A DNA stretch of 46,411 nt from a virus. Below are positions 4,950 to 37,901 of this stretch, one piece after another. Both the position numbers and the translations under genes were made by a program. Position 1 is the stretch's first letter. Each line of letters starts with the position of its first letter. The notes under the pieces were generated by a model. It made no database searches. It was not told the DNA's origin and saw only the letters and a program-made list of their open reading frames with translations. The DNA is taken from IMG/VR virus record IMGVR_UViG_3300019926_000277, positions 1 to 46,411 of that record; one strand, 5' to 3'.

Positions 4950-5087
4950 ATGGACGCTGAAGAAGAGGCCCTGTTCCTGCTGACGCTGGCCGCGCTTGGT
5001 GGGCAGCAGTCGGGCAGTGCCCAGCCAGGGCTTATCGAGGACGCGGAACCGATGACCGCGACCTGCACGGTCGAGCGGTCCGAGTAA
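4950..5087 (+). CDS. small hypothetical protein
   Basis: 45 residues, ATG 6 bp after the preceding stop. The N-terminus has a short hydrophobic run (A-L-F-L-L-T-L-A-A-L) flanked by acidic residues. The C-terminal end is polar with one Cys. There is no recognisable family. Position in a compact operon and GC-rich third positions suggest a real gene. Confidence 0.45.
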   Translation: MDAEEEALFLLTLAALGGQQSGSAQPGLIEDAEPMTATCTVERSE

Positions 5088-5111
5088 CAGCGGTTCTTTC
5101 AGGCAGTTGTA

Positions 5112-7655
5112 ATGCCCCAGTATCTGACGCTAAAGCCAAAGAGGCTGTTTGAAGAAGACTTTAGTGACGGGACACTTGGACAGTTTTCTGTTTACGGAAA
5201 TAATAATGGTACAGTGTCAGTATCTGGTGAAGAAGTTACAATAAGCAACACGTCTGGCAGTTCCACTTCGTATATCGGTATAGAAACAGACGTTAAGTTT
5301 CCAGTTGGCACAAAACTTATTGCACAATCCAAAAACACTGAAGGTAGACACGCGGCAGTTGTTGGGCTATCAGACCCACGTGAACGAGAACCGTATCCAC
5401 ATGCTGAAAATAACCCTGGACCTGCCGCTTCAATCTACGCCAGAGCGGATACACCAGACTCTGTAACAAGCGTTGATTCCGATACTGACCAAACGCGGTT
5501 TTCTGTTTTTTCACAAGACCCAAGAAATTACCAAGTTTGGGAAATAGAACGTCCAGACAGTGATACGGTAAAATATTACGTTAATGGAGAACTCGTAAAA
5601 ACCTATAACGTAAATTTTGGTCGGGATTGTCGAGTATATTTTTGTGCTGATGGATACAGCAACCCGTGTTCTCTCGTAATAAATGAAGTTTTTGTTACAG
5701 AAATAGACACATCCAGCGACGAGGCACAGTACGGTGTCACCGCAGACGACACGAGTAACAACGGGGTACTCGGGGGCGACACGTACACGGCGTCACGTAC
5801 CGTTAGCGGACTGTTTCCTGGGCGTGGCGACATCAAAACCGAGACGATTAATGGCAAGACCGTCACCGTCGAGAACGACCAGTACGGCAAGTGGGTCTGC
5901 GTGCTCAACTACGAGCACTATGGCGGTGAAAACCCCACGGTCGCACCTGGCTCGACGTTTCCACAGCTTCCCAACGGCCTATCCCGCGTCGAAGACGTAC
6001 AGGCGCTGGGCACGAGCGGCGAGCTTCGCCACGTCGACAACATCACGCAATATGGCACGTGGTCGGTCGACGCGGTGCGCCTGGAGGCCGAGACGGAAAA
6101 CCACGGCCGTCGCATTAACTACTTTACGACCGACCAGACGGCCATCGACGCCATCGTAGATAACTCGACGCAGGATGGTGGTACGGCTTTACAGGCGGAC
6201 ACATACTATTCTGACCATACCGCGGCGCTGCCTGACGTAGGAAATAGTGCTACTTCAACTGACAGTAATCACATTTTCGGATACGAGTTCCCGATGTACC
6301 AGGGTGGCGAGCACCACTGGGCGTTGGCGGGGTCGGGCAACCGTTGGGAAGTGGACGACTTTCCTGGTGATGAAAGCCAAACGACCGTCCACCGCGTATG
6401 GGTGCGCGTCAACAGCACGCCCAAAGGTGGTGGTGGCGACGTAACAACCACAAGCACCACTGAAACGATTGGCGCAACGGGTGTGGCTTCGCTGGGAAGT
6501 GCGCTCTTTAGTGCACGTGGTAGTCCAGTTGATACCAGCACAACGCTGTCTGCTGATACAACGCTGACCACCGCTAACGGCACGACAAGTGTAGGAAATA
6601 TCTTACTACAGGTTTCTGCCGTTCAGCAGCAGGCGGTGCTATCGAGTGTGGCTGGTGACCAGACGGTCGGGTCTGCGGTTGCTGAGGCTGTGGAGGGCAC
6701 AGCCCTAAGTATCGAGACTGTCGCCACCTTCGCAAACTCGGCTGTCGTGTCGTTGGGGCAGGTCGAAGGCGCACAACTCGACGGTGTTGCCGCTGGTGCG
6801 ACCGCCGACGTGTTTGCCGTGCTGTCCGCACAGAGCGCCACAGCGGGCGCACAGACGGCTTCGTTGTCTACCGAGACCCAGGCATCGGCCCTGGCCCAGG
6901 ACGCCACTCACGCGCCGCTCACGCCGACTATGAGCATCGTGATACGCGTGGAGTCCAGCGACCTGCGCGTGGACGGGAAGTTCTCGGACAGCCTGGCAGC
7001 AAGCGTCGGCGCGCAGACGTTTATCAAGGTCGCCAAAACTGTTGGGTCGACAGACACGTTCGAGAGTACTGGTACAGCCAGCGCCACACCACTGCTGGCA
7101 CCCACGACGGCGCTGCTTACGGGGCAAGCTGGTGACAACACGACAACCACATCGACGCTGGGTGCGCTTCCACACGAGTTTGCTGGTACTGGCTTGGTTG
7201 CTGACCCACCCACTTCGTCTGGGGCAACTGGCAGCGTCGTGAACGCCGCGCCGACCGACCAGGTTGCCAGCGGGTCCCAGTCGTCTTCGCGTGGCGGAAC
7301 GCGGACCAGCACGACGCCGACCGCGCTGACCAGCGTGGCGAATACGGCGGCGGTAAGCGACATCGCACCGACCGTGGCCTCGGCGTTGGTCCAGAGTGGG
7401 ATTGTCGACAGTAAGGCCGACGCTGCGGCCGCCGTCGCCCACCTTGTTGCGCGGACGGCCCGAGACGATGGGTTCAGCACCGCCGACGCAGTGGGGCTGT
7501 TGGGTGAGATTGACACGACGAACCTCACTGCCCGCACGGCAGCGTTCTTCCTGCTGTTCGCTTCACTGACAGGAGCCAACGAGGCCGTCATCCAAAACGA
7601 GTCGACGGTGGCCGACCTGGACGAAAGCAGGACCACAGTCACAATCATGGAATAA
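5112..7655 (+). CDS. large multidomain fibre or adhesin-like virion protein
   Basis: 847 residues. Residues 1-200 look like a LamG/concanavalin A-type jelly roll (starts E-E-D-F-S-D-G-T-L-G-Q-F, ends with a Y-Y-V-N-G-E-L strand pattern). Residues about 215-360 contain W-V-C-V-L-N-Y-E-H-Y-G-G and later H-G-R-R-I-N-Y-F-T, which recall a fibrinogen or intelectin-like domain seen in phage structural proteins (recognition from memory). The last about 400 residues are Ala/Ser/Thr/Val-rich with few aromatics, suggesting a repetitive fibrous rod. The first 600 bases are AT-rich (33% GC in 5581-5640) against about 70% GC in neighbouring genes, and composition switches near 5715 at the domain boundary. 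It sits in the head module, so a capsid-attached fibre is as likely as a tail fibre. Confidence 0.6.
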   Translation: MPQYLTLKPKRLFEEDFSDGTLGQFSVYGNNNGTVSVSGEEVTISNTSGSSTSYIGIETDVKFPVGTKLIAQSKNTEGRHAAVVGLSDPREREPYPHAENNPGPAASIYARADTPDSVTSVDSDTDQTRFSVFSQDPRNYQVWEIERPDSDTVKYYVNGELVKTYNVNFGRDCRVYFCADGYSNPCSLVINEVFVTEIDTSSDEAQYGVTADDTSNNGVLGGDTYTASRTVSGLFPGRGDIKTETINGKTVTVENDQYGKWVCVLNYEHYGGENPTVAPGSTFPQLPNGLSRVEDVQALGTSGELRHVDNITQYGTWSVDAVRLEAETENHGRRINYFTTDQTAIDAIVDNSTQDGGTALQADTYYSDHTAALPDVGNSATSTDSNHIFGYEFPMYQGGEHHWALAGSGNRWEVDDFPGDESQTTVHRVWVRVNSTPKGGGGDVTTTSTTETIGATGVASLGSALFSARGSPVDTSTTLSADTTLTTANGTTSVGNILLQVSAVQQQAVLSSVAGDQTVGSAVAEAVEGTALSIETVATFANSAVVSLGQVEGAQLDGVAAGATADVFAVLSAQSATAGAQTASLSTETQASALAQDATHAPLTPTMSIVIRVESSDLRVDGKFSDSLAASVGAQTFIKVAKTVGSTDTFESTGTASATPLLAPTTALLTGQAGDNTTTTSTLGALPHEFAGTGLVADPPTSSGATGSVVNAAPTDQVASGSQSSSRGGTRTSTTPTALTSVANTAAVSDIAPTVASALVQSGIVDSKADAAAAVAHLVARTARDDGFSTADAVGLLGEIDTTNLTARTAAFFLLFASLTGANEAVIQNESTVADLDESRTTVTIME

Positions 7656-13763: not shown

Positions 13764-15059
13764 ATGGCAGAACTTTACGGAACAACTGGCATCCCTGGCA
13801 CGAGCGCCACCGTTCGGAGTGGGGGCACCACCGCAGTCGGTGCGGCCTTCACGACCACCGCGGCCCTTGTGGGCGTGATGGATACCGACAACGGTGACGC
13901 CACGCCTGGGGATGTGTACACGATTGAATCGTCCAGTGAAGCTGGGACGCAGTTCGGGGAAGGCTCCGAACTCAAGGAGCAGACCGACCTGGCCTACCTC
14001 AACGGGGCTGGCCTGGTCTACGCCTACCCAGTCACTGAAACAGAAACGACTGAGAGCTTTTCGGGGTCCAGTTCGGGGACGCTGGCGGAGGCGCCCGCAC
14101 TCGACCCGACGCTGCACGACCACCTCGACATCACGGCGGAGGACACCACGACTTCCACCTCTGTCGACGTGGTTGTCGACCCCGACCCCACGACGCCCGC
14201 AGACGCGGACACCATAGAACTCAACCCCGAGACGGGCAACTGGGAGGCCGACGAGTCGAGTGACTACGACATCACCTACACGCACGGTGACTACGACAAC
14301 GGCATCCAAGAGACCGCAAAGTTGGTCCCTCGTTCTCTCGGTGTGCTGACCGAAAACACGAGCGTCATCAACGACCTGTTGACCGAACTCAACAGCTACG
14401 ACGTGGACTTCGACTTCATGCACGGCTACGCTGGTGCGCCCGCGGAGACCACGGCGGCCGATTACAGCGACAACGTGGACGACCGCCGACAGGTTATCGT
14501 CGCCCCGTCGCGTGGCTACCTCGACAGCGCCGAGACCAACGAGGCTCGGACCGTCGGGGCCGTGGCTGGTAAGCAGGCTGGCAAGCCACTTGGGGACTCC
14601 ACCACTTACGAGGACCTGGATGGCTTCGCCTCGCTGCGGACCGCCTACACCAACAGCGAGCTTGCCACGCTTATCGACAAGCAGGTCTACCCCATCAAGC
14701 AGGGTGGGGGTGTGAAGGTCATCAAGGACATGACGACGAGCACCGACACGCGCTTCGAGCGGGTGTACGCCTCCGAGATTGTGGACGAGGTGACTCAGAT
14801 TAGCAACGACATTGCCCAGCAGTTCATCGGCAACGTCAACAGCGAGGACGAGCGGATTCTGCTGGCCGAATCCCACCGCACCTCCTACAGCCAGCTTGAG
14901 CGCGACGAGCTACTCGAAGACTACTTCGTCGGGGTGTCGAAGGGTGCTGACGACTTCGAGGTCGACGTGGAAATCGGCATCGACGTTATCGGCATCATGG
15001 ACACTATCGACGTGACCGTCACCGTGGGTGACATAATCACCAACGGAGGGGCGGCCTAA
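13764..15059 (+). CDS. tail sheath protein
   Basis: 431 residues; its presence makes this a contractile-tailed virus. The N-terminus is a typical sheath arm (Y-G-T-T-G-I-P-G-T-S-A-T-V then a Thr/Ala-rich stretch). Residues about 240-300 carry V-I-V-A-P-S-R-G-Y-L. The C-terminal domain has K-V-I-K-D-M-T-T-S, then R-V-Y-A-S-E-I-V-D-E-V and a late D-D-F-E-V-D-V-E-I-G-I-D-V-I-G-I, the beta-hairpin arm that interlocks sheath subunits. An acidic insertion near residues 95-175 is probably a surface domain. Confidence 0.85.
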   Translation: MAELYGTTGIPGTSATVRSGGTTAVGAAFTTTAALVGVMDTDNGDATPGDVYTIESSSEAGTQFGEGSELKEQTDLAYLNGAGLVYAYPVTETETTESFSGSSSGTLAEAPALDPTLHDHLDITAEDTTTSTSVDVVVDPDPTTPADADTIELNPETGNWEADESSDYDITYTHGDYDNGIQETAKLVPRSLGVLTENTSVINDLLTELNSYDVDFDFMHGYAGAPAETTAADYSDNVDDRRQVIVAPSRGYLDSAETNEARTVGAVAGKQAGKPLGDSTTYEDLDGFASLRTAYTNSELATLIDKQVYPIKQGGGVKVIKDMTTSTDTRFERVYASEIVDEVTQISNDIAQQFIGNVNSEDERILLAESHRTSYSQLERDELLEDYFVGVSKGADDFEVDVEIGIDVIGIMDTIDVTVTVGDIITNGGAA

Positions 15060-15071
15060 CGGAGGTAAACC

Positions 15072-15500
15072 ATGGCATGGAATCCTACTAACGCGAACGA
15101 CGTTCGGCTCGTGATTAGCCGCGTTGACGAAGATGGCGACCTTGTGAAGACGGGGACCACGTCCATCGTCGTTGACGACTTCTCTATCGAAACCGAGGAA
15201 GACCTCCAGAGCCTGAGTGGCATCGGCAACCGCAAGCCACAGGGTATCTCGAAGGGGGACATCGACTACAGCTTCTCGTTTACCGTGCAGGGTGAAGACG
15301 AGGATACGATGCTCGACCTTTCCGAGGACGGCGAGGCTGTCGAACTGGAACTCAAGGCCCTGTTCGACGCCGTCACCATCGTCCTCGAAGGTGCGTGGGC
15401 TGGCACCCGCAACGCCTCTGGCTCGTCGGGTGACCCCGTCGAGTACGAGGTCGAGGGCATGGCGACGAACCGCCGCAACGAAGCGCAGTCCGACGGATAA
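15072..15500 (+). CDS. tail tube protein
   Basis: 142 residues, immediately after the sheath with GGAGGT (15061-15066) in front of ATG 15072. A small beta-sandwich: V-R-L-V-I-S-R-V-D-E-D-G-D, T-S-I-V-V-D-D-F-S-I-E-T-E-E-D, then D-I-D-Y-S-F-S-F-T-V-Q-G-E-D. This strand pattern and the sheath-tube order are those of myovirus tube proteins. Confidence 0.78.
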   Translation: MAWNPTNANDVRLVISRVDEDGDLVKTGTTSIVVDDFSIETEEDLQSLSGIGNRKPQGISKGDIDYSFSFTVQGEDEDTMLDLSEDGEAVELELKALFDAVTIVLEGAWAGTRNASGSSGDPVEYEVEGMATNRRNEAQSDG

Positions 15501-15537: not shown

Positions 15538-15600
15538 TGAGCGACCTTACAGCACTCCGTACTGTTTCGGTAACCCATCGGAGGGTCTCCGATGAGTGAC
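15538..15600 (+). CDS. 20-residue leader peptide candidate
   Basis: A 20-codon frame starts 11 bp after the promoter element and ends at TGA 15598-15600, overlapping the first 9 bases of the tail chaperone gene. It reads straight through the hairpin at 15577-15593 that covers the chaperone start. Its translation would open that hairpin, so a coupling role fits better than a protein function. No family is recognised. Confidence 0.4.
15577..15593 (+). promoter_or_regulatory. hairpin sequestering the chaperone Shine-Dalgarno and start codon
   Basis: Perfect inverted repeat ATCGGAG-GGT-CTCCGAT (7-bp arms, 3-base loop). The left arm holds the GGAG of the Shine-Dalgarno sequence, and the right arm ends on the AT of ATG 15592. 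Folded in mRNA, it would block initiation unless the upstream leader frame is translated. Confidence 0.55.
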
Positions 15601-16158
15601 CTGTTCGAACTCCGAGAAAAAGTCGAAGACGGAGCGCAGTGGCGTGGCAGCATCAACGTCGAGGTCGATGGCGAGGTCCAGACGCTGACCGTTCGCCAGC
15701 TTCGTGACCCCGAGTTCTGGGAGGTCATGTCGAAAATCGACACCGACGAACTCGAAGGCCTGCAAGACGACATCCCAGACGACGTATCCGAAGAACTCCG
15801 CGAGCTACAGGAGGAGGATAACCTCGACGCCGAGCAGGAAGAGCGCCTCGAAGAGCTACAGGAGCGTATCGAGGACGACGGTGTCAACATGTTCGACAAA
15901 ATCTCGCGGGAAACCTTCGAGGGCATCAAGCAGTGCGCCAAGTACGGCGTCGAGCCCGACGAGAAAGACGTGAAGCACGTGCTGACTACCCAGGCTGGCG
16001 AGATACAGGAGCAGTACGGTGGCACGGGCAACGACGAGGCGCGACAGTACGTCAACGACCACGTCATCGAGCCGATGGTCGAGCAGTCGACCGACTTCAC
16101 CTCCTTTGCTATTGGCATCCGTGTCCTCTCCGAAACGCTGGAGGACGAGGGAAACTGA
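15592..16158 (+). CDS. tail assembly chaperone, short form (gpG-like)
   Basis: 188 residues between the tail tube and the tape measure, the position of lambda gpG-type chaperones. The fold appears alpha/beta at the N-terminus (I-N-V-E-V-D-G-E-V-Q-T-L-T-V-R-Q-L-R-D) and very acidic and helical in the middle (a Glu/Leu coiled coil around residues 65-95). It ends at TGA 16156-16158, which directly follows the slippery heptamer GGGAAAC. A second frame, -1 relative to this one, continues to 16364. Such two-frame chaperones bind the tape measure during tail assembly and are not part of the finished virion. Confidence 0.8.
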   Translation: MSDLFELREKVEDGAQWRGSINVEVDGEVQTLTVRQLRDPEFWEVMSKIDTDELEGLQDDIPDDVSEELRELQEEDNLDAEQEERLEELQERIEDDGVNMFDKISRETFEGIKQCAKYGVEPDEKDVKHVLTTQAGEIQEQYGGTGNDEARQYVNDHVIEPMVEQSTDFTSFAIGIRVLSETLEDEGN

Positions 16159-16364
16159 AGGAACTCGCCCACTCGCAGATGGGCGAGGAAATTTACTCGC
16201 TGCACGACAACGGCCGTAAGCTATTCACCACGGCCCGCGAGTGCACGCCGATTCAGCGGTTCGTCTACGTGTTTGCCAAAAGCGAGCACACCGACGACGT
16301 AGACACCGACCCAGGCGGGATGGACAAAGTCAATCGCTTCAACGACGCGACTGGCAAATTCTGA
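15592..16364 (+). CDS. tail assembly chaperone, -1 frameshift product (gpGT-like)
   Basis: Predicted 257-residue fusion: all 188 codons of the short form, then a slip back of one base at 16155 and 69 more codons to TGA 16362-16364. The extension has a protein-like sequence (E-E-I-Y-S-L-H-D-N-G-R-K-L-F, then C-T-P-I-Q-R-F-V-Y-V-F-A-K-S-E) and no start codon of its own suitably placed near its beginning, which supports expression only by frameshifting. In lambda the equivalent fusion recruits tube subunits while the common N-terminal part holds the tape measure. Confidence 0.75.
16149..16187 (+). promoter_or_regulatory. programmed -1 ribosomal frameshift signal
   Basis: Slippery heptamer G-GGA-AAC (16149-16155) in the correct phase, stop TGA in the zero frame immediately after it, an 8-base spacer (16156-16163), then a perfect 7-bp stem CTCGCCC (16164-16170) / GGGCGAG (16181-16187) with a 10-base loop. 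All canonical parts are present. Confidence 0.8.
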
Positions 16365-16444: not shown

Positions 16445-18160
16445 ATGGCCGCCATCGAAAATCTCAAGCTACAGGTTACGGCGGACATCGCCAAAGCCGT
16501 AGCAAAGCTCGAAGACCTACAAGAAGAGCTACAGGACGTAGCTGAATCTATCGAGGCGGTCGACGCAGTCGGTGACGAGGGCGTAACGGTTCGCACCCAC
16601 GTCGACGGCGTCACCGACGACCTTGCCCGCATCCGCGCCCAGTTAGCGGCGTTCGAGGCGGGCACACATCTGAACGTTGACAGTAGCGTCGACGCTGCTG
16701 GTGGTGCGTTGCCAGGCCCCAATATCGCTGGCGCGCTCCCAGCACCGCCTGGCTTTACGCCAGACGCCGACCGCGGTGGCGGTGATGGGTTCAACTTTTC
16801 GCGTGTGTTCCGACGCCTCAAAGGAAGTCTAAGTGACACAGTCGAGAGTGTCCGCGACGTGGACATCCGTATGTCGGACCTGCACAACCTGCTGGCAACA
16901 CTCGTCCCGCTGATGGTCGTCTTCATCGGTGCCATCCCCGCCGCCATCACGGCCATCTATGGCCTGGCAGCCGCCGCTGTCACCGCCGCAGGGGCGATGG
17001 CGGCGCTGGCTGGCTTTGGCGCACTCGGTGTGGGCCTGGAAGATGGACAGTTCCAAATGGAAAACCTCAGCGAAGTGGTAGACGAGGTCCGCAACGACTT
17101 TATCGACGCCTTCGCACCCTTGGCCGAGCGGCTGGAGCCGTTGTTCCGTGACGCGATTGACGGTCTCGACCCGTTCTTCCAGGCCATCGCCAACACGGGA
17201 GATGCGCTGATGGAACTCACCGACGAGGCACGCGCCTTCGGGGCCTTTATCATGGACTTCGTGCCTGGCGCGCTCACGGCACTGGCTGGCCTGGTCGAGT
17301 CGTTGTCTCCCGTGCTGGCCGACATCGGCCGTGCGATAAACGAAAACTTTAATACCTTTGTTAGGCAACTCGTCTTCTGGACTAAGCAAGCTGTTCCCGT
17401 CGTTGCTTCACTTGTCCAGACGATTATCAACGCACTGCCGACCATCGTAGACCTCGGCATCCAGTTTGCCGTCGTTGCGAACGCGGTACTGAACGTCGTC
17501 GGGCTGCTTTGGCGGTTGCTGACCATCAACGGCCTTCTCGCCGAAGGGATGGGGCTATTGATTGGTGCGCTCCTCGTCGCAGCCACGGCATTTTCGCTGC
17601 TTAACAAGGTCATATTCGGCTTTGTTGCCAAGGCGATGACATCGGCAATTGCGTCGGTGTATCGCTTTATGGTCGCCTTAGCGACCGCGAGCAGCCAGAT
17701 GACGCTCTTCGGCTCGACCGCGCTGGCAAATGCTATCAGTTCTCTTATCGGCTTTACAGCAAGCATCTTTAGCTCCATCGCTGGTCTGCTTGGGTTCCAG
17801 GTGGCAGCCTGGAAAGCCGCTATCGCGGCAGCAGCGTTCTGGACAGCAGTGACTGTTGGCCTCGCACTCCCACTGCTCGGTATGATTAGCGGCATGGCGG
17901 CAGGCTTTCTCGGACTCTCAGACTCTGTCGACCAGGCGACAAGCTCACTGAAAGAGTTTGACCGCGTATCCAGCCGTACGAGTGGTGGATTCAACCCGTA
18001 CAGCGGCAATCCGCCCGACGAGGGTGCGGCAGCAGCGGGGGTCGTTGGGCGCAACGGCACGGTCATCAACTTCGAGGGCAACGGTGACCCCGACGACGAC
18101 GCCAGCACCGCACGCTACACGTCGTTCCGCCAGGGTCGCACGACGGGAGGCGTAAACTAA
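16445..18160 (+). CDS. tape measure protein
   Basis: 571 residues after the chaperone pair. The N-terminus is a coiled coil (A-K-A-V-A-K-L-E-D-L-Q-E-E-L). Long hydrophobic helices follow: about residues 145-195 (L-A-T-L-V-P-L-M-V-V-F-I-G-A-I), about 330-390, and 455-490. This mix of coiled coil and membrane-like segments is the hallmark of tape measure proteins, which fix tail length and enter the host envelope. At about 1.5 angstrom per residue a tail near 85 nm is expected (inference). The C-terminal about 60 residues are polar and probably docked at the tail tip. Confidence 0.85.
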   Translation: MAAIENLKLQVTADIAKAVAKLEDLQEELQDVAESIEAVDAVGDEGVTVRTHVDGVTDDLARIRAQLAAFEAGTHLNVDSSVDAAGGALPGPNIAGALPAPPGFTPDADRGGGDGFNFSRVFRRLKGSLSDTVESVRDVDIRMSDLHNLLATLVPLMVVFIGAIPAAITAIYGLAAAAVTAAGAMAALAGFGALGVGLEDGQFQMENLSEVVDEVRNDFIDAFAPLAERLEPLFRDAIDGLDPFFQAIANTGDALMELTDEARAFGAFIMDFVPGALTALAGLVESLSPVLADIGRAINENFNTFVRQLVFWTKQAVPVVASLVQTIINALPTIVDLGIQFAVVANAVLNVVGLLWRLLTINGLLAEGMGLLIGALLVAATAFSLLNKVIFGFVAKAMTSAIASVYRFMVALATASSQMTLFGSTALANAISSLIGFTASIFSSIAGLLGFQVAAWKAAIAAAAFWTAVTVGLALPLLGMISGMAAGFLGLSDSVDQATSSLKEFDRVSSRTSGGFNPYSGNPPDEGAAAAGVVGRNGTVINFEGNGDPDDDASTARYTSFRQGRTTGGVN

Positions 18161-24277: not shown

Positions 24278-25252
24278 ATGCCGATAAACATTGACGGCAC
24301 GGAAATCAGTACCGCAACCATCGACGGGACCGAAGTGAAAGAAATAACCGCCGATGGTGATGTGGTGTTTACGGCTACTCCACAAGTGTTGGTCATTAAT
24401 TTTGGTAATTCCTTTGACGTATATGAGCTTGGGACATGGAATAAGCTTGATGACATAAGCGCGAGTATCTATATTAGTTCTTGGGACATAAATACAGCAG
24501 GGAACTATCTTGCTACGGGAGGGTATGGAAAAATAGAAATTTATAACACAAGTGAATGGTCGGTCGAACAAACAATAACCCCTTACACCAAAACAGTTAA
24601 TGATATAGATTTTTCACCGAACAACCAATATTTAGTGCATTGTGAAAATCATTGGGACGGCACTTTCGACAAAGTTTATGTTGTCGATACGTCAAACTGG
24701 TCAAGAGTAAAAACCTTGACTGGCGGTTCACCTACTCAATACGTCGCTATAGGTAATAACTATGTCGCAGGAGCCAGCAATGAAGAAACATACGTCTGGT
24801 CACTCGGAAACTGGAATGAGCAGTTGTCCTTTAGCCACACTTCTGACTTCTCGGACGGCATAGCGTTCGATGATACAGAAGATAATTTTGTCTTCACTCA
24901 GAATCAAAATCCAACACGCGTATATGATACGTCTACTTGGACCAAAACAACAGAAATAAACGACGCAAGCCAACCATCATTCTCCCCAAGTGGCGACGAG
25001 CTTGTTTTTGTAGAAGCCTCTGACGTGCGTGTATGGGACACAACAAGTACAAATCCAACGAACTGGACACAAACACAGTACTTGAATGATGGTGACGTTA
25101 CATATGACGCTTGTTGGGCAGACGGTGGAAACTACTTGGCGTTCACAAGCCGAGACAATAATACCGTCTACGTCTACGAAACAACAAACTGGACCTTAGA
25201 AACGAGCATTTCCGTCCCTTCGTCGCCATATGCCGTGCAAGCAACAATATAA
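24278..25252 (+). CDS. beta-propeller receptor-binding protein candidate
   Basis: 324 residues, 2 bp after the fibre gene. Residues 1-33 form a short tag (I-N-I-D-G-T-E-I-S-T-A-T-I-D-G-T-E-V, then E-I-T-A-D-G-D-V-V-F), probably the virion anchor. The rest holds seven repeats, each with a strand like V-Y-D-T-S-x-W-T: D-V-Y-E-L-G-T-W, E-I-Y-N-T-S-E-W, V-V-D-T-S-N-W, V-W-S-L-G-N-W, V-Y-D-T-S-T-W, V-W-D-T-T...N-W and V-Y-E-T-T-N-W. This is the layout of a seven-bladed WD40-like propeller. From about 24380 the DNA is AT-rich (40% GC in 24481-24540), unlike its surroundings. Last of the tail genes, so a receptor-binding role is likely. Confidence 0.7.
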   Translation: MPINIDGTEISTATIDGTEVKEITADGDVVFTATPQVLVINFGNSFDVYELGTWNKLDDISASIYISSWDINTAGNYLATGGYGKIEIYNTSEWSVEQTITPYTKTVNDIDFSPNNQYLVHCENHWDGTFDKVYVVDTSNWSRVKTLTGGSPTQYVAIGNNYVAGASNEETYVWSLGNWNEQLSFSHTSDFSDGIAFDDTEDNFVFTQNQNPTRVYDTSTWTKTTEINDASQPSFSPSGDELVFVEASDVRVWDTTSTNPTNWTQTQYLNDGDVTYDACWADGGNYLAFTSRDNNTVYVYETTNWTLETSISVPSSPYAVQATI

Positions 25253-31323: not shown

Positions 31324-34206
31324 CTACATGAAGTCGTCCACGGTCACCTGCGTGCTGTCGGCCATCGCCTCGTCAAAGTCCCAGCGCATGGCGTTCAGAA
31401 TGGGCGTTAGGGGGTCTCGCAGCACCTTGTCGACCATCTTGTCCGTGTCGACCACGAACGCGTCGGGCACCTCGTTGGGGTGTTCGCCCGCCACGGCGTC
31501 GACCGTGGTGCCGTCCTCCTTCGGGGCCGCCGAATAGGTGCGTGGCCAGTCCCCACGGACCTGCTCGATGTACAGCAGTTGGGGTTTCGACCCCTCACCC
31601 ATGCGTTCCCACTCGAAGTGTTCGTTGGCGTATTTCGCGCCACGGTAGGTCGGCTGGGGACGTTTGTCGATAGTGCCGTACTCGGTCGGGTGCTTGCTCA
31701 TGCCCTTGGGGCGGGCGATGTAGCTGTTGGGCACCTCCCGCTCGTTGATGGCCTCGACCTCGTTGCTAATCCGCTCGTAGACGTGGTCTCGTGCCACGAC
31801 ACGCTCGTCCACGCGGAGGATGGTCTGGAGCGTGTGCTCCGAGACCTCCCGTGTCACCTCCGCACGGTCCGAGCGGACGATGTCGATGCCCGTGACCGAG
31901 AACTCGCCTGGCGACAGCGACGAGTCGAGCGACCGCAAGTGGTCGGGGATGGTGTTCTCGCTGTCGACCCACTCGCCCTCGTCCCAGGCGATAATCTCGG
32001 CATACCGCTTTTTGGCCTTTTCCTTGGTTTTGCCCTCGGGCACGAACGCCCACGGTGCGTAGGACTCTATCTCAAGCTCGCAATAGTGGTCCACCTTTTC
32101 GAGGGCGTCTGCCTCGGAGAGGTCCTCGAACTCGTCGGGCGTATGGCCGATGGGCGTGAGATTGAACGTCTCTGCGGTCCACTCGTCGTACCAGTCGTTG
32201 ACGCGCTCGGCGGCCTCGGTGGCCAGCGAGACCACCTGCTCGTAATCGTCACGCGTCTGGGCGTCGATGAAAGGCACGCTGGTCATTACCGAGTCCGTGT
32301 CACCGCCGACCAGGTACGCCTTATTGCCCTCGTAACCGCGCTCGCCCTTAATGTCGTTCATCGCGTCGATGAACCTGTCGGCGGAGTCCTGAATCATCTT
32401 GCGGCCGCCCAGCGTGATGCCCTCGGCAATCCGCCAGTCGAACAGGCGGTAACCCTTGCCGTAGGAGTCGGAGTCGCCGTACACGCCGTAGACGCTGTTG
32501 ACGATGCGCTTGACGGCGTCGTAGAGCGCCGTGCCGTCGTAGTGGTCCTTGAGCCCCATCAGGTCGTCCACGACCTCCGTCATAAATCCCGTCTCGACCG
32601 AGGGCTTGACGAAGTACAGCTTTTCGTAGCGGGGCTCGGCGGCGCCAGTACGGCTGTCGGGATTTTTCACGTTCGTCGGCCGCGTGTCCACGTATGTCCA
32701 CCGACAGTCCTCTTCAGTGTACTTGGAATCAGCAAGGTCTTCGGCAGTCCCGACCAGCGTCTCGGGAGACATGTTGACGTTCCGAATCATGTTCGGGTAC
32801 ATGCTCCAGAGGTCGGGGTAGACGACGTTCTTGTGGCGGCCAATCTTCGGTTCGAAGACGTGGGCGCCGAAGTACCAGCCCCGCTCGGGTTCCTCGTTGG
32901 TGGGCAGGGCCACGCCCATCTCCTTCGCGTACCGCAGGATGAACACGTCCAGCAGGTCGATGTTGTTGTGGCAATTCTCGAACTGGACGCCAGCCAGCGA
33001 GCGGATGTTCTGGAAGAGTTCCACGACCTCGGCGGCCTGGTCGATGCCGACGACGGCCTGCACGTCGCGCATGTTGTATTTCAGGAACGTGGCGGGGTCG
33101 TCACGCCAGGCCGTGTCGATGTCGTCAATGTCCTCCTTCCCCATGTCGAGTTCCTTACTGGCGATGTTCTCCAGTGAGTAGCCGCCCTTGGGCTTTTGCC
33201 ACTGCGTCTTTTTGTAGGCCTTGAGCATGTCGAAGAAACCGACACCCTTGCCGTCGGGACCCCAATTCCCGTCCCACACCTGACCCATCGGGGACCAGTC
33301 ACGGTAGGACATGGCGTTCTTGGCCTGGCAACGGTTAATCAGATACGGGTAGTCGAACGGGCGACCGTTGTCTGTCGTACTGGAGTTCCACCCGCTCAAC
33401 AGGTCTGGCTGTCGGTCGGCCACCCAGGTGTTGAAGTCGTCCAACATGGCCGCCTCGTTACCGAACACGCGGGTCTCGGCGATGTGGGCACCCTCGGGCC
33501 GTTCCTCGACGGCCATGTTCTGAAGTTCCGTATCGCTGTGCACCCAGCCGTCGTAGCGCAGCAGCCAGACCGTGTATTCGTCGGAGTAGTTGTCGTAGGC
33601 AGTGATGGCCGTGACGGGCTGGGCAGCGTCGTCGGGCTCGGGGAAGCCGTCGGGGGAGAGCACCTCGATGTCGATGGTGACCAGCCGCGGTTCGACCGAC
33701 CAGTCGGGGTCCTCGATGGGCTCGATGTCGTCCACGTCGACGCGGTAGTCACCATCCATCGACTGGTGCTCCCAGGACTCGCTCGTGTCGACCTCGAAGT
33801 GCGTCTTGATGCCAGTGTCGATTAGGAACCGAGAGTCGTAGAACACGTCGGCCTCCCACGTCTGGTCGAAGTACTCGCGCAGCCCCTGCTTGTCGCGCTT
33901 CCCACCGACGTGCCAGGGTAGACGCGTCTCGACACGGACCAGGTCGTGGCCGTGGATAGACTCGTAGCCCGACCCGACCGACTCGACCCAGTCGTGGTTC
34001 TTGACGCGCTTGACGTTGGCGTCACCCTCGATGTAGAAGGAGGGGTTGTGGCCTTCGACCTCGACCCAGCGGCGGTTGCCGTCCTCGTCGCGGCAAAACA
34101 GGTGGACGATGGCCTCGTCGTACACCTCTTCATACTCAATCTGCATGAGGTGCAACTGTTCGGTGTCGTCGTCCTCTGAGTCAACGAAGTCGGCAAGCCC
34201 GCCCAT
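31324..34206 (-). CDS. polB: family B DNA polymerase
   Basis: 960 residues from ATG 34206, preceded by its promoter; a GTG at 34230 in frame is less likely. Proofreading motifs: I-D179-I-E181, N-x...F-D285-Y, and Y-N-M-R-D381. Polymerase motifs: motif A D465-L-W-S-M-Y-P-N-M-I, motif B K566-R-I-V-N-S-V-Y573-G-V-Y-G, motif C G-D636-T-D638-S-V. All catalytic residues are present, so exonuclease and polymerase should be active. Length and the large N-terminal domain fit an RNA-primed rather than protein-primed enzyme. No intein. No PCNA or clamp loader gene is seen, so host factors are probably used. Confidence 0.96.
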   Translation of the reverse strand: MGGLADFVDSEDDDTEQLHLMQIEYEEVYDEAIVHLFCRDEDGNRRWVEVEGHNPSFYIEGDANVKRVKNHDWVESVGSGYESIHGHDLVRVETRLPWHVGGKRDKQGLREYFDQTWEADVFYDSRFLIDTGIKTHFEVDTSESWEHQSMDGDYRVDVDDIEPIEDPDWSVEPRLVTIDIEVLSPDGFPEPDDAAQPVTAITAYDNYSDEYTVWLLRYDGWVHSDTELQNMAVEERPEGAHIAETRVFGNEAAMLDDFNTWVADRQPDLLSGWNSSTTDNGRPFDYPYLINRCQAKNAMSYRDWSPMGQVWDGNWGPDGKGVGFFDMLKAYKKTQWQKPKGGYSLENIASKELDMGKEDIDDIDTAWRDDPATFLKYNMRDVQAVVGIDQAAEVVELFQNIRSLAGVQFENCHNNIDLLDVFILRYAKEMGVALPTNEEPERGWYFGAHVFEPKIGRHKNVVYPDLWSMYPNMIRNVNMSPETLVGTAEDLADSKYTEEDCRWTYVDTRPTNVKNPDSRTGAAEPRYEKLYFVKPSVETGFMTEVVDDLMGLKDHYDGTALYDAVKRIVNSVYGVYGDSDSYGKGYRLFDWRIAEGITLGGRKMIQDSADRFIDAMNDIKGERGYEGNKAYLVGGDTDSVMTSVPFIDAQTRDDYEQVVSLATEAAERVNDWYDEWTAETFNLTPIGHTPDEFEDLSEADALEKVDHYCELEIESYAPWAFVPEGKTKEKAKKRYAEIIAWDEGEWVDSENTIPDHLRSLDSSLSPGEFSVTGIDIVRSDRAEVTREVSEHTLQTILRVDERVVARDHVYERISNEVEAINEREVPNSYIARPKGMSKHPTEYGTIDKRPQPTYRGAKYANEHFEWERMGEGSKPQLLYIEQVRGDWPRTYSAAPKEDGTTVDAVAGEHPNEVPDAFVVDTDKMVDKVLRDPLTPILNAMRWDFDEAMADSTQVTVDDFM

Positions 34207-34241
34207 GTTACCGTAACGTAGGGCGGCCACCCATAAAAGGC
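34207..34241 (-). promoter_or_regulatory. early-type promoter for the DNA polymerase
   Basis: Minus-strand TATA CTTTTATG (34232-34239), then CCCTACG (34217-34223) and the tight dyad GTTAC-G-GTAAC (34207-34217) touching the ATG. Confidence 0.6.
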
Positions 34242-34691
34242 TTACGTTCTCTCCGCGACGAACCGCTCTGCGTGCTCGCGCATCAGCGTGCTGGGGTTGA
34301 CCATCGGTCTGGCCTCGACAACACGGCCGTACGCTTTGTAGTACGGGATGTGGTCGTACACCGACAGTGCAGCCGCACAGACGGCCGCAGAGCGGTTTTT
34401 TCCGACGTGGCAGTGCACCAGGACGTTCTCGTCCTCGGGGCGCTCAAGCGCGTCCAAGACGCTCTCAGCGGCACGTGCGAACATCGGGTAGCCGTGCGAG
34501 CCACCCCAGTTGTCGCGGCTACTCTCGTCGTCCGCAAGCATGAAGTGTTCGTACGGCGTGTCGTCGGAGACGTTCTGCGAGACGATGTCCTGGCAGACGC
34601 TGATGACACGGTCGAACCTGGTGGTCTCTTCGGACTGCACGCTTCGGATGCTCGTGATGTGCAGCCCGTGGTCGATATGGTCTATCGCCAT
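34242..34691 (-). CDS. dual-specificity-type protein phosphatase
   Basis: 149 residues from ATG 34691; frames extending further upstream overlap the next gene and look like out-of-frame sequence. Signature V-H93-C94-H-V-G97-K-N-R100-S101, the CX5R phosphate loop, followed by A-A-V-C-A-A-A-L helix. A-D54-D55-E lies in the position of the general acid. This is a compact Cys-based phosphatase acting on phosphoproteins, RNA 5' ends, or nucleotides; the substrate cannot be told. It is the last gene in an operon with the DUF4406 gene. Confidence 0.8.
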   Translation of the reverse strand: MAIDHIDHGLHITSIRSVQSEETTRFDRVISVCQDIVSQNVSDDTPYEHFMLADDESSRDNWGGSHGYPMFARAAESVLDALERPEDENVLVHCHVGKNRSAAVCAAALSVYDHIPYYKAYGRVVEARPMVNPSTLMREHAERFVAERT

Positions 34692-34743
34692 CGTCCTCGA
34701 TGCGATAGGCCGAGACGGCCACTTGTGGCCGTGAGTTCGATGC

Positions 34744-35097
34744 TCATAGGTCGTCGTACCAGGCGTCTTGCACGAGATGGTCGACGTTGAAGTAGACGGG
34801 GATGTCGAGTTCCCGCGCGAACGCCACCTCTTCGTCACCGCCAGGACTCTCCCCGTCGAGGCGGAGCAGTGCGTCACACCGCTCCACGAACGCCAGGTCG
34901 AGTTCCATCCAGTCGTCGTGGTCGCGCTCGGGGTACACCAGGCTCCACAGTGCCGACATGGTGTGTGGCACGAACGGATACACGTTCTCGGTCTCGTCCA
35001 CGATGTACTGCGCGGCGTCGATGGCGTTGCGGACGTTTGCACCCCATTTGCCCGTGCTGTACGGGCCCGACACGTACACGATGGTGTTGTCGCTCAT
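34744..35097 (-). CDS. DUF4406-like (nucleoside 2-deoxyribosyltransferase-related) protein
   Basis: 117 residues. Opening I-V-Y-V-S-G-P-Y-S-T-G, then N-V-R-N-A-I-D-A-A-Q-Y, P-F-V-P-H-T, D-W-M-E-L-D-L-A-F-V-E-R-C-D-A-L-L-R-L-D-G-E-S, G-D-E-E-V-A-F-A-R-E-L-D-I-P-V. This order (YxSGP, NV..A, PH, DL..v..cDal..l.gs.s.G...E...A...giPv) is that of DUF4406, related to nucleoside 2-deoxyribosyltransferases. Expected chemistry is glycosyl transfer or hydrolysis on nucleosides or nucleotides, but enzymes of this branch are poorly characterised. Confidence 0.75.
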   Translation of the reverse strand: MSDNTIVYVSGPYSTGKWGANVRNAIDAAQYIVDETENVYPFVPHTMSALWSLVYPERDHDDWMELDLAFVERCDALLRLDGESPGGDEEVAFARELDIPVYFNVDHLVQDAWYDDL

Positions 35098-36850: not shown

Positions 36851-36963
36851 TTTTGTTCTCCACAGCGACGACAGTACACGTCGTAGCAGCCCGTTCGCAT
36901 CCCGTGGATAGTGACCTCTTCCTGTACGATGTCGTGGCCGAACAGCCAGCAGCGCAGCGCCAT
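36844..36963 (-). CDS. DUF1660-like zinc-finger microprotein
   Basis: 39 residues, starting in the stop of the RNA ligase gene (TGATG). C-W-L-F-G-H-D then, after 20 residues, Y-C-R-R-C-G-E-Q. It shares the 'C-x3-GH ... YC-x-RCGEQ' plan with the gene at 30173, so the two are likely paralogues. Coupled translation with the ligase suggests a linked function. Confidence 0.6.
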   Translation of the reverse strand: MALRCWLFGHDIVQEEVTIHGMRTGCYDVYCRRCGEQNL

Positions 36964-37901
36964 CAGAACTCCTGGCAGAGGTTCTTGAGCGTGCGGGCAC
37001 ACGACTTGCTGGCCTTCGAGCGGACCTCAGCCTTGAAGTCGTCGTCCCACTCGGCCTCGAAGCCGCCGTCAGCAAGCAGGCTGGACCACGCCTCTTCGGC
37101 CAGCACGTCGACCAACACCTCGCGGGGCAGGTCTTCCATCATCTCCATGCGGAGGCGGTCGTACTCACCCTCGTCCACGAGCTTGTGGGCGACGTTCTCG
37201 ATGCGCTGGGGCGTGACGAAGGCCGCCACGAACTCCGCGGCGTCGGACTGGGCCTTCGTGGGGTTGTTGAACGAAGACGTGTTCTTTTCACGGAGGTCCT
37301 CCGACACCTTTTTGGCGCGGACAGTCCCGTCGACACGACGGACCACGACGCCCTCGGGCGGCCCACCGAACATCGACTGTTCGGGAATTTCGATGCCGTG
37401 GTCCTGTAGCGTGTCACCATCGCCACGGCGCAGCACGGGCGCGTGCTGGAGTGGGCTGTCGGCAATCAGGTCAGTAAACCTATCCCAGTCAGCCCACCCC
37501 TCGTGCTCGTGCCATGCGTCGAACAATACGACGTTGGGCTGGTCAGCGTCCAGCGGAACGTGCGGACTGCCCTTGTGTGGCTGCTGCCAATTGATGTCTT
37601 CGTAGTCGAGACTGTGCAGGTGCATGGCCTCACCAAAAAACGTCCACTCGTGGGCCATGAACGCGTCGAACCACCCCTGCTGTCGTTTGATATACTCGAC
37701 GGCGTGCCCGAACGCCTTGGGCAGGTTCTCGTCATCGTGGTCGTAGGTGTGGTTCCGCGTCCCGACCACGAGGTTACCGTCCTCGTCCCACGTGAAGCGG
37801 AAGTTGGCGCCGTCCAGCTTTTCGGTGACGACGGCCTCACCGCCGAGGACGCCGTCTGTCTCTGGGTCGTTGGGGTAATGAAGTTTTGGAAACTTGCGCA
37901 T
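36963..37901 (-). CDS. RNA ligase (Rnl2-like nucleotidyltransferase)
   Basis: 312 residues. Motif I T-E-K28-L-D-G-A-N (adenylated Lys), a segment F-F-G-E-A-M-H (motif III/IIIa region), motif IV E-G-V-V-V-R-R and motif V V-R-A-K-K-V-S-E. This set and the size fit the T4 Rnl2-like RNA ligase family, which seals nicks in RNA, often to repair tRNAs cut by host defence nucleases. The C-terminal about 90 residues are helical, as in Rnl2. There is no partner kinase-phosphatase beside it. Confidence 0.82.
   Translation of the reverse strand: MRKFPKLHYPNDPETDGVLGGEAVVTEKLDGANFRFTWDEDGNLVVGTRNHTYDHDDENLPKAFGHAVEYIKRQQGWFDAFMAHEWTFFGEAMHLHSLDYEDINWQQPHKGSPHVPLDADQPNVVLFDAWHEHEGWADWDRFTDLIADSPLQHAPVLRRGDGDTLQDHGIEIPEQSMFGGPPEGVVVRRVDGTVRAKKVSEDLREKNTSSFNNPTKAQSDAAEFVAAFVTPQRIENVAHKLVDEGEYDRLRMEMMEDLPREVLVDVLAEEAWSSLLADGGFEAEWDDDFKAEVRSKASKSCARTLKNLCQEF

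Follow-up and report, generated by a model that had tools for sequence, protein, structure and literature searches.

In phage lambda, a -1 slip near the end of gene G, located between a tail protein gene and the tape measure gene, yields a low-level fusion, with GT and G at about 1:30 (PMC5009743). The same source describes -1 frameshifting in the tail chaperones of the archaeal viruses HVTV-1, HCTV-1, HCTV-2, and HCTV-5, with the slippery heptamer G_GGA_AAC in HCTV-1 and A_AAA_AAC in HCTV-2 (PMC5009743), and Hardycor1 carries G_GGA_AAT (PMC7911831). The one experimentally tested archaeal -1 frameshift is that of fucA1 (A_AAA_AAT) from the crenarchaeon Saccharolobus (PMC8211752), a cellular gene and no tail chaperone. 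In HATV-2, the GenBank record (MZ334525) joins both chaperone frames, gp21 and gp22, by a "putative programmed translational -1 frameshift". The -1 frameshift of an archaeal tail chaperone is already a known kind of signal, and less new than an earlier note on the present DNA had implied. The under-reported part seems to be a zero-frame stop codon set directly against the slippery site, which appears to be selected across a halovirus family and recurs in HCTV-2; no earlier mention of it was found in the literature searched.

The window, the whole stretch of DNA analyzed here, is the 46,411-base virus record IMGVR_UViG_3300019926_000277, with its head-tail gene arm on the plus strand. The virus is a halovirus with a contractile tail, and protein comparisons give HATV-2 (Thumleimavirales, Soleiviridae; host Halorubrum) as its closest named relative, the sheaths being 45% identical and the chaperone pairs 41%. 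Searches of phage and plasmid DNA at near identity gave no match, and two scans of genome contigs for provirus relatives found none. The gene order is sheath, tube, G/T, and tape measure, with the baseplate genes downstream, and the features are as follows.

13764-15059, plus strand: tail sheath gene (phrog_10244, E 1.6e-65; 45% identical to the HATV-2 sheath)
15072-15500, plus strand: tail tube gene (PF18906 Phage_tube_2, E 2.5e-7, above the cut-off)
15592-16158, plus strand: G, the zero-frame putative tail assembly chaperone ORF, 188 aa, homologous over its full length to HATV-2 gp22 "tail assembly chaperone"
16149-16155, plus strand: slippery heptamer G_GGA_AAC, in phase; GGGAAAC, AAAAAAC, or GGGAAAT in 18 of 18 related loci
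16156-16158, plus strand: zero-frame stop TGA, abutting the heptamer on its 3' side; abutting stop in 15 of 18 loci
16149-16364, plus strand: T, the -1 frame extension, 69 codons past the shift, for a predicted 257-aa GT fusion
16164-16187, plus strand: stem-loop, probably non-essential, 8 bp (16164-16171 with 16180-16187), 8 nt 3' of the heptamer
16445-18160, plus strand: tape measure gene (tape measure/tail PHROGs, best E 1.8e-7; position as HATV-2 gp23)

The earlier note had placed the junction in a "lambda-type" setting. This is correct for the location, since G/T lies between the tail tube and tape measure genes as in lambda G/GT-type chaperone pairs, but not for the tail, which must be contractile because a sheath gene is present. 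Lambda also differs as a bacterial siphovirus translated by a bacterial host ribosome, and its second slippery codon is AAG, where the window has AAC.

Several other regions of these genomes were recorded. Just beyond the baseplate genes, the window encodes a WD40 beta-propeller-like protein (24278-25252), matching a THOC3-type profile (E 4.3e-15, under that family's cut-off) and generic WD40 over its cut-off; the stretch is low in GC (46% vs about 61%) and is possibly a recent acquisition or a receptor-binding part. A second GC dip (50%, 5001-6000) falls at the start of an 847-aa ORF (5112-7655). The minus-strand replication-side arm carries a family B DNA polymerase (31324-34230), an RNA ligase (36963-37901), and a dual-specificity phosphatase-like protein (34242-35042). 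Two related loci, L005 (3081-3977) and L007 (3261-3980), have a LAGLIDADG-type endonuclease ORF (PF03161, E 2.7e-12 in L005) between the tube and chaperone genes; in the window, these two genes are separated by a short gap.

Read directly, the zero-frame ORF of the window ends in GAG GAC GAG GGA AAC TGA, and the -1 frame reads GGG AAA CTG AAG and onward; it is already open far upstream of the shift and ends with the TGA at 16362-16364. All coordinates given in the earlier note for the in-phase heptamer, the abutting TGA, the stem, the 69-codon -1 frame, and the 257-residue fusion hold. Of 7,983 other in-phase codon pairs from 25 left-arm genes, five had the pattern X_XXY_YYZ and none the pattern R_RRA_AAN; across the listed left-arm genes, with approximately 8,000 codon pairs, G_GGA_AAC is the sole purine-type in-phase slippery heptamer.

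In HATV-2, both G and T are homologous to those of the window (41% identity across 96%), and the gene order and the abutting TGA are shared; the heptamer there is A_AAA_AAC. The HCTV-2 chaperone (KC292028, Saparoviridae), with annotated G and GT products, also has TGA immediately after A_AAA_AAC; however, it belongs to another virus family and its extension spans 166 codons. The HCTV-1 chaperone (Druskaviridae) has the identical heptamer G_GGA_AAC, whereas its stop lies 27 nt downstream. No homology of the window G to the HCTV-2 and HCTV-1 chaperones was detected. Two further haloviruses came up beside these. HHTV-2 (L068:1280-1330), a relative of HCTV-2, is annotated as two separate ORFs with the junction GAG GAA AAC TGA GAG; AAAAC TGA is kept, the heptamer is the imperfect G_GAA_AAC, and the open -1 frame (GKLRAAVRRS...) matches that of HCTV-2 (KKLRKAVRSG...), so HHTV-2 probably holds an unannotated frameshift at this non-canonical site. 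The HRTV-25 record (L028:2357-3044) annotates a putative -2 frameshift in the chaperone, and no canonical heptamer was found near its stop; the direction of the shift seems to vary between halovirus families.

For the comparison with relatives, IMG/VR was scanned with chaperone and sheath profiles, which resulted in 18 junction loci including the window, or 15 after near-copy removal. A slippery heptamer closes G in all 18: GGGAAAC in twelve, AAAAAAC in five, and GGGAAAT in one. Each conforms to R_RRA_AAY, is in phase, and is accompanied by a homologous -1 frame. Bases 1-3 of the heptamer change between GGG and AAA as one block across two codons, mixed forms were never seen, and the tree of the loci needs at least three such switches, most of its branches being weakly supported. 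For the three synonymous heptamer positions in 10 genomes, codon usage gave a joint probability of about 10^-13, with positions and genomes treated as independent and shared ancestry ignored. The dS values in these genes range from 1.5 to above 2 or are saturated, and third codon positions elsewhere are near saturation. The heptamer is conserved beyond codon and protein constraint, and the alignment check suggested in the earlier note, whether the heptamer is kept while codons vary, was positive in the 18 loci.

The T extension was compared in the same way. In the -1 frame, relatives differ by 33/20/63% at the three codon positions, a pattern that argues for selection on T as a protein in this frame; coding selection is found on both frames, and T is under purifying selection. 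The invariant residues of T start at the first codons after the shift, including the early KLxELAxS. From the heptamer kept in 18 loci, the claim of a -1 frameshift signal in the tail assembly chaperone of an archaeal virus gains support, and we consider it very probable that -1 programmed ribosomal frameshifting makes the G and GT chaperones.

Other origins of T were weighed against frameshifting. T might be a separate gene, translated by re-initiation or from its own start after G stops, as G ends right where T begins and the window has an in-frame ATG (16179-16181) inside T with an AAGGA motif ahead of it. However, this ATG is missing in HATV-2 and in loci L011, L016, L036, L037, L046, L048, and L067, the T residues preceding it (KLxELAxS) are conserved, and every genome retains the heptamer, for which re-initiation would have no use. 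Across the related loci, no start codon belonging to T is conserved; internal initiation was rejected on this ground, and a separate gene is very unlikely. Transcriptional slippage on an A-run, with T made by the RNA polymerase rather than by ribosomes, appears more improbable still: an A6 run is present in five of the 18 loci, but the other 13 have G3A3 only, not long enough for RNA polymerase to slip efficiently, and in all loci the heptamer phase fits tandem tRNA re-pairing. A sequencing or assembly frame error in a single ORF would explain the frame break itself and nothing more. All 18 loci, one from an isolate genome and the others from separate assemblies, break frame at the corresponding heptamer, the stop lying farther downstream in three; none of them lacks the heptamer or has the frames merged in one ORF. 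A frame error is therefore already refuted, and its probability is negligible.

The full model of the earlier note goes further than a real frameshift, and takes the stem-loop downstream as a conserved stimulator that the slip depends on. The stem is present in the window after an 8-nt spacer, with a perfect 7-bp core of CTCGCCC (16164-16170) and GGGCGAG (16181-16187), extended to 8 bp by the inner A16171-T16180 pair. In its favor, L016 also forms a perfect 7-bp stem, in which changes in both arms have turned two C-G pairs into G-C, 6 bp form in L005, and the longest stems slightly exceed the synonymous expectation (z 2.25). However, the helix is broken by at least one mismatch in most relatives, and in HATV-2 at the same register. 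RNAalifold over the relatives found no consensus fold downstream of the heptamer, and the pairs at the stem register across relatives number 78 vs 72 expected from peptide and codon usage (z 1.7). When the stem region of the window was recoded synonymously, keeping the peptide and the virus's own codon usage, 7/7 pairs appeared in 5.5% of the recodings and 6/7 or more in 29%; GC-rich codons for the conserved L-A ... G-E peptide account for much of the pairing by themselves. An essential stem is thus unlikely, and we regard it as at most a genome-specific aid and not a defining part of the signal.

The stability of the downstream fold was in mild excess under synonymous recoding (Stouffer about -2.4 to -4.4); as a specific signal it was rejected because values down to -4.9 occur elsewhere in the same genes. 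The Rfam search gave no match. Upstream, a Shine-Dalgarno near the site occurs as GGAGG in the window and partially as GAGGA in L067, being absent in the other 16 loci, and GGAGG as a dnaX-like stimulator was rejected since it is unconserved. Neither of the usual stimulators, downstream structure or upstream Shine-Dalgarno, is conserved, and without a conserved stem the signal is not fully "textbook".

The position of the stop codon is conserved to a greater extent. In 13 of the 15 non-redundant genomes, the zero-frame stop follows the heptamer directly, against 4.1 expected from the codon usage of the two -1 codons (P 3e-9 if independent, shared ancestry ignored), and TGA, TAA, and TAG are all in use. 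The second -1 residue is Arg in six genomes. Five of these encode it by the rare AGA or AGG, which creates the stop; the remaining one, L011, has AGA but no stop. In L067, a Leu codon is shifted to TTA, by which TAG arises, and the site becomes GGGAAAT TAG. The exceptions are L011/L013, with the stop 9 nt on, and L048, with the stop 18 nt on, which indicate that the abutting stop is favored and not required. These counts point to selection on the abutting stop, which the earlier note had singled out as a notable feature from one sequence.

Slippery site and stop lie on average 26 nt apart in the SEA-PHAGES chaperones (PMC10885494), which makes a distance of zero unusual. Stops near slippery sites have been reported with different effects: in human cells, UGA directly after the HIV-1 slippery site, open to eRF1, lowered apparent frameshifting by about 70% (PMC4373837), and the frameshift of pea enation mosaic virus is supported by a stop located 3 nt downstream (PMC5009743). 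We infer that the abutting stop acts through competition that would keep the fusion at a low share, rather than as a simple termination pause of the kind the earlier note had suggested could help the slip.

Under the frameshift reading, most ribosomes would translate G (188 aa) and terminate at the TGA. A minority would slip back one base on G_GGA_AAC, the tRNAs on GGA and AAC re-pairing with GGG and AAA, and would read 69 further codons to give the 257-residue GT fusion. The G:GT ratio would most likely be fixed by the abutting stop, where a release factor and the -1 Leu-tRNA may compete at the slip step. By analogy with lambda gpG/gpGT, G would coat or chaperone the tape measure protein, with the T portion recruiting tail tube subunits, so that the G:GT ratio would set productive tail assembly.

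The putative chaperone function of G and T derives mainly from their position and from the HATV-2 annotation. Four of the 11 family members gave a weak match to PHROG 14268 (tail assembly chaperone; best E 0.012), and a PDB profile search with the chaperone gave no meaningful match. The top PDB match in Foldseek, from a query model with mean pLDDT 71, was YqbN (3klu), which we take to be a prophage-type protein, at a non-significant E of 0.89.

For this family, a comparative case replaces a single-sequence guess: 15 non-redundant halovirus genomes keep the heptamer, nearly always with the abutting stop, and vary in RNA structure. Experimental tests of archaeal -1 frameshifts are few, and these genomes offer a natural test set for archaeal ribosome slippage in which variants separate the elements: L011/L013 and L048 are without the abutting stop, L067 has GGGAAAT TAG, and several are without the stem. 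A broader and tentative reading, possible but still doubtful, is that selection keeps the abutting stop as a functional element, both in this family and, independently, in Saparoviridae (HCTV-2); in both, the archaeal release factor and the -1 Leu-tRNA competing at the adjoining codon would set the G:GT ratio and make a conserved RNA structure unnecessary. If true, competition at the abutting stop would be a termination-gated -1 frameshift, so described for archaea nowhere in the literature searched.
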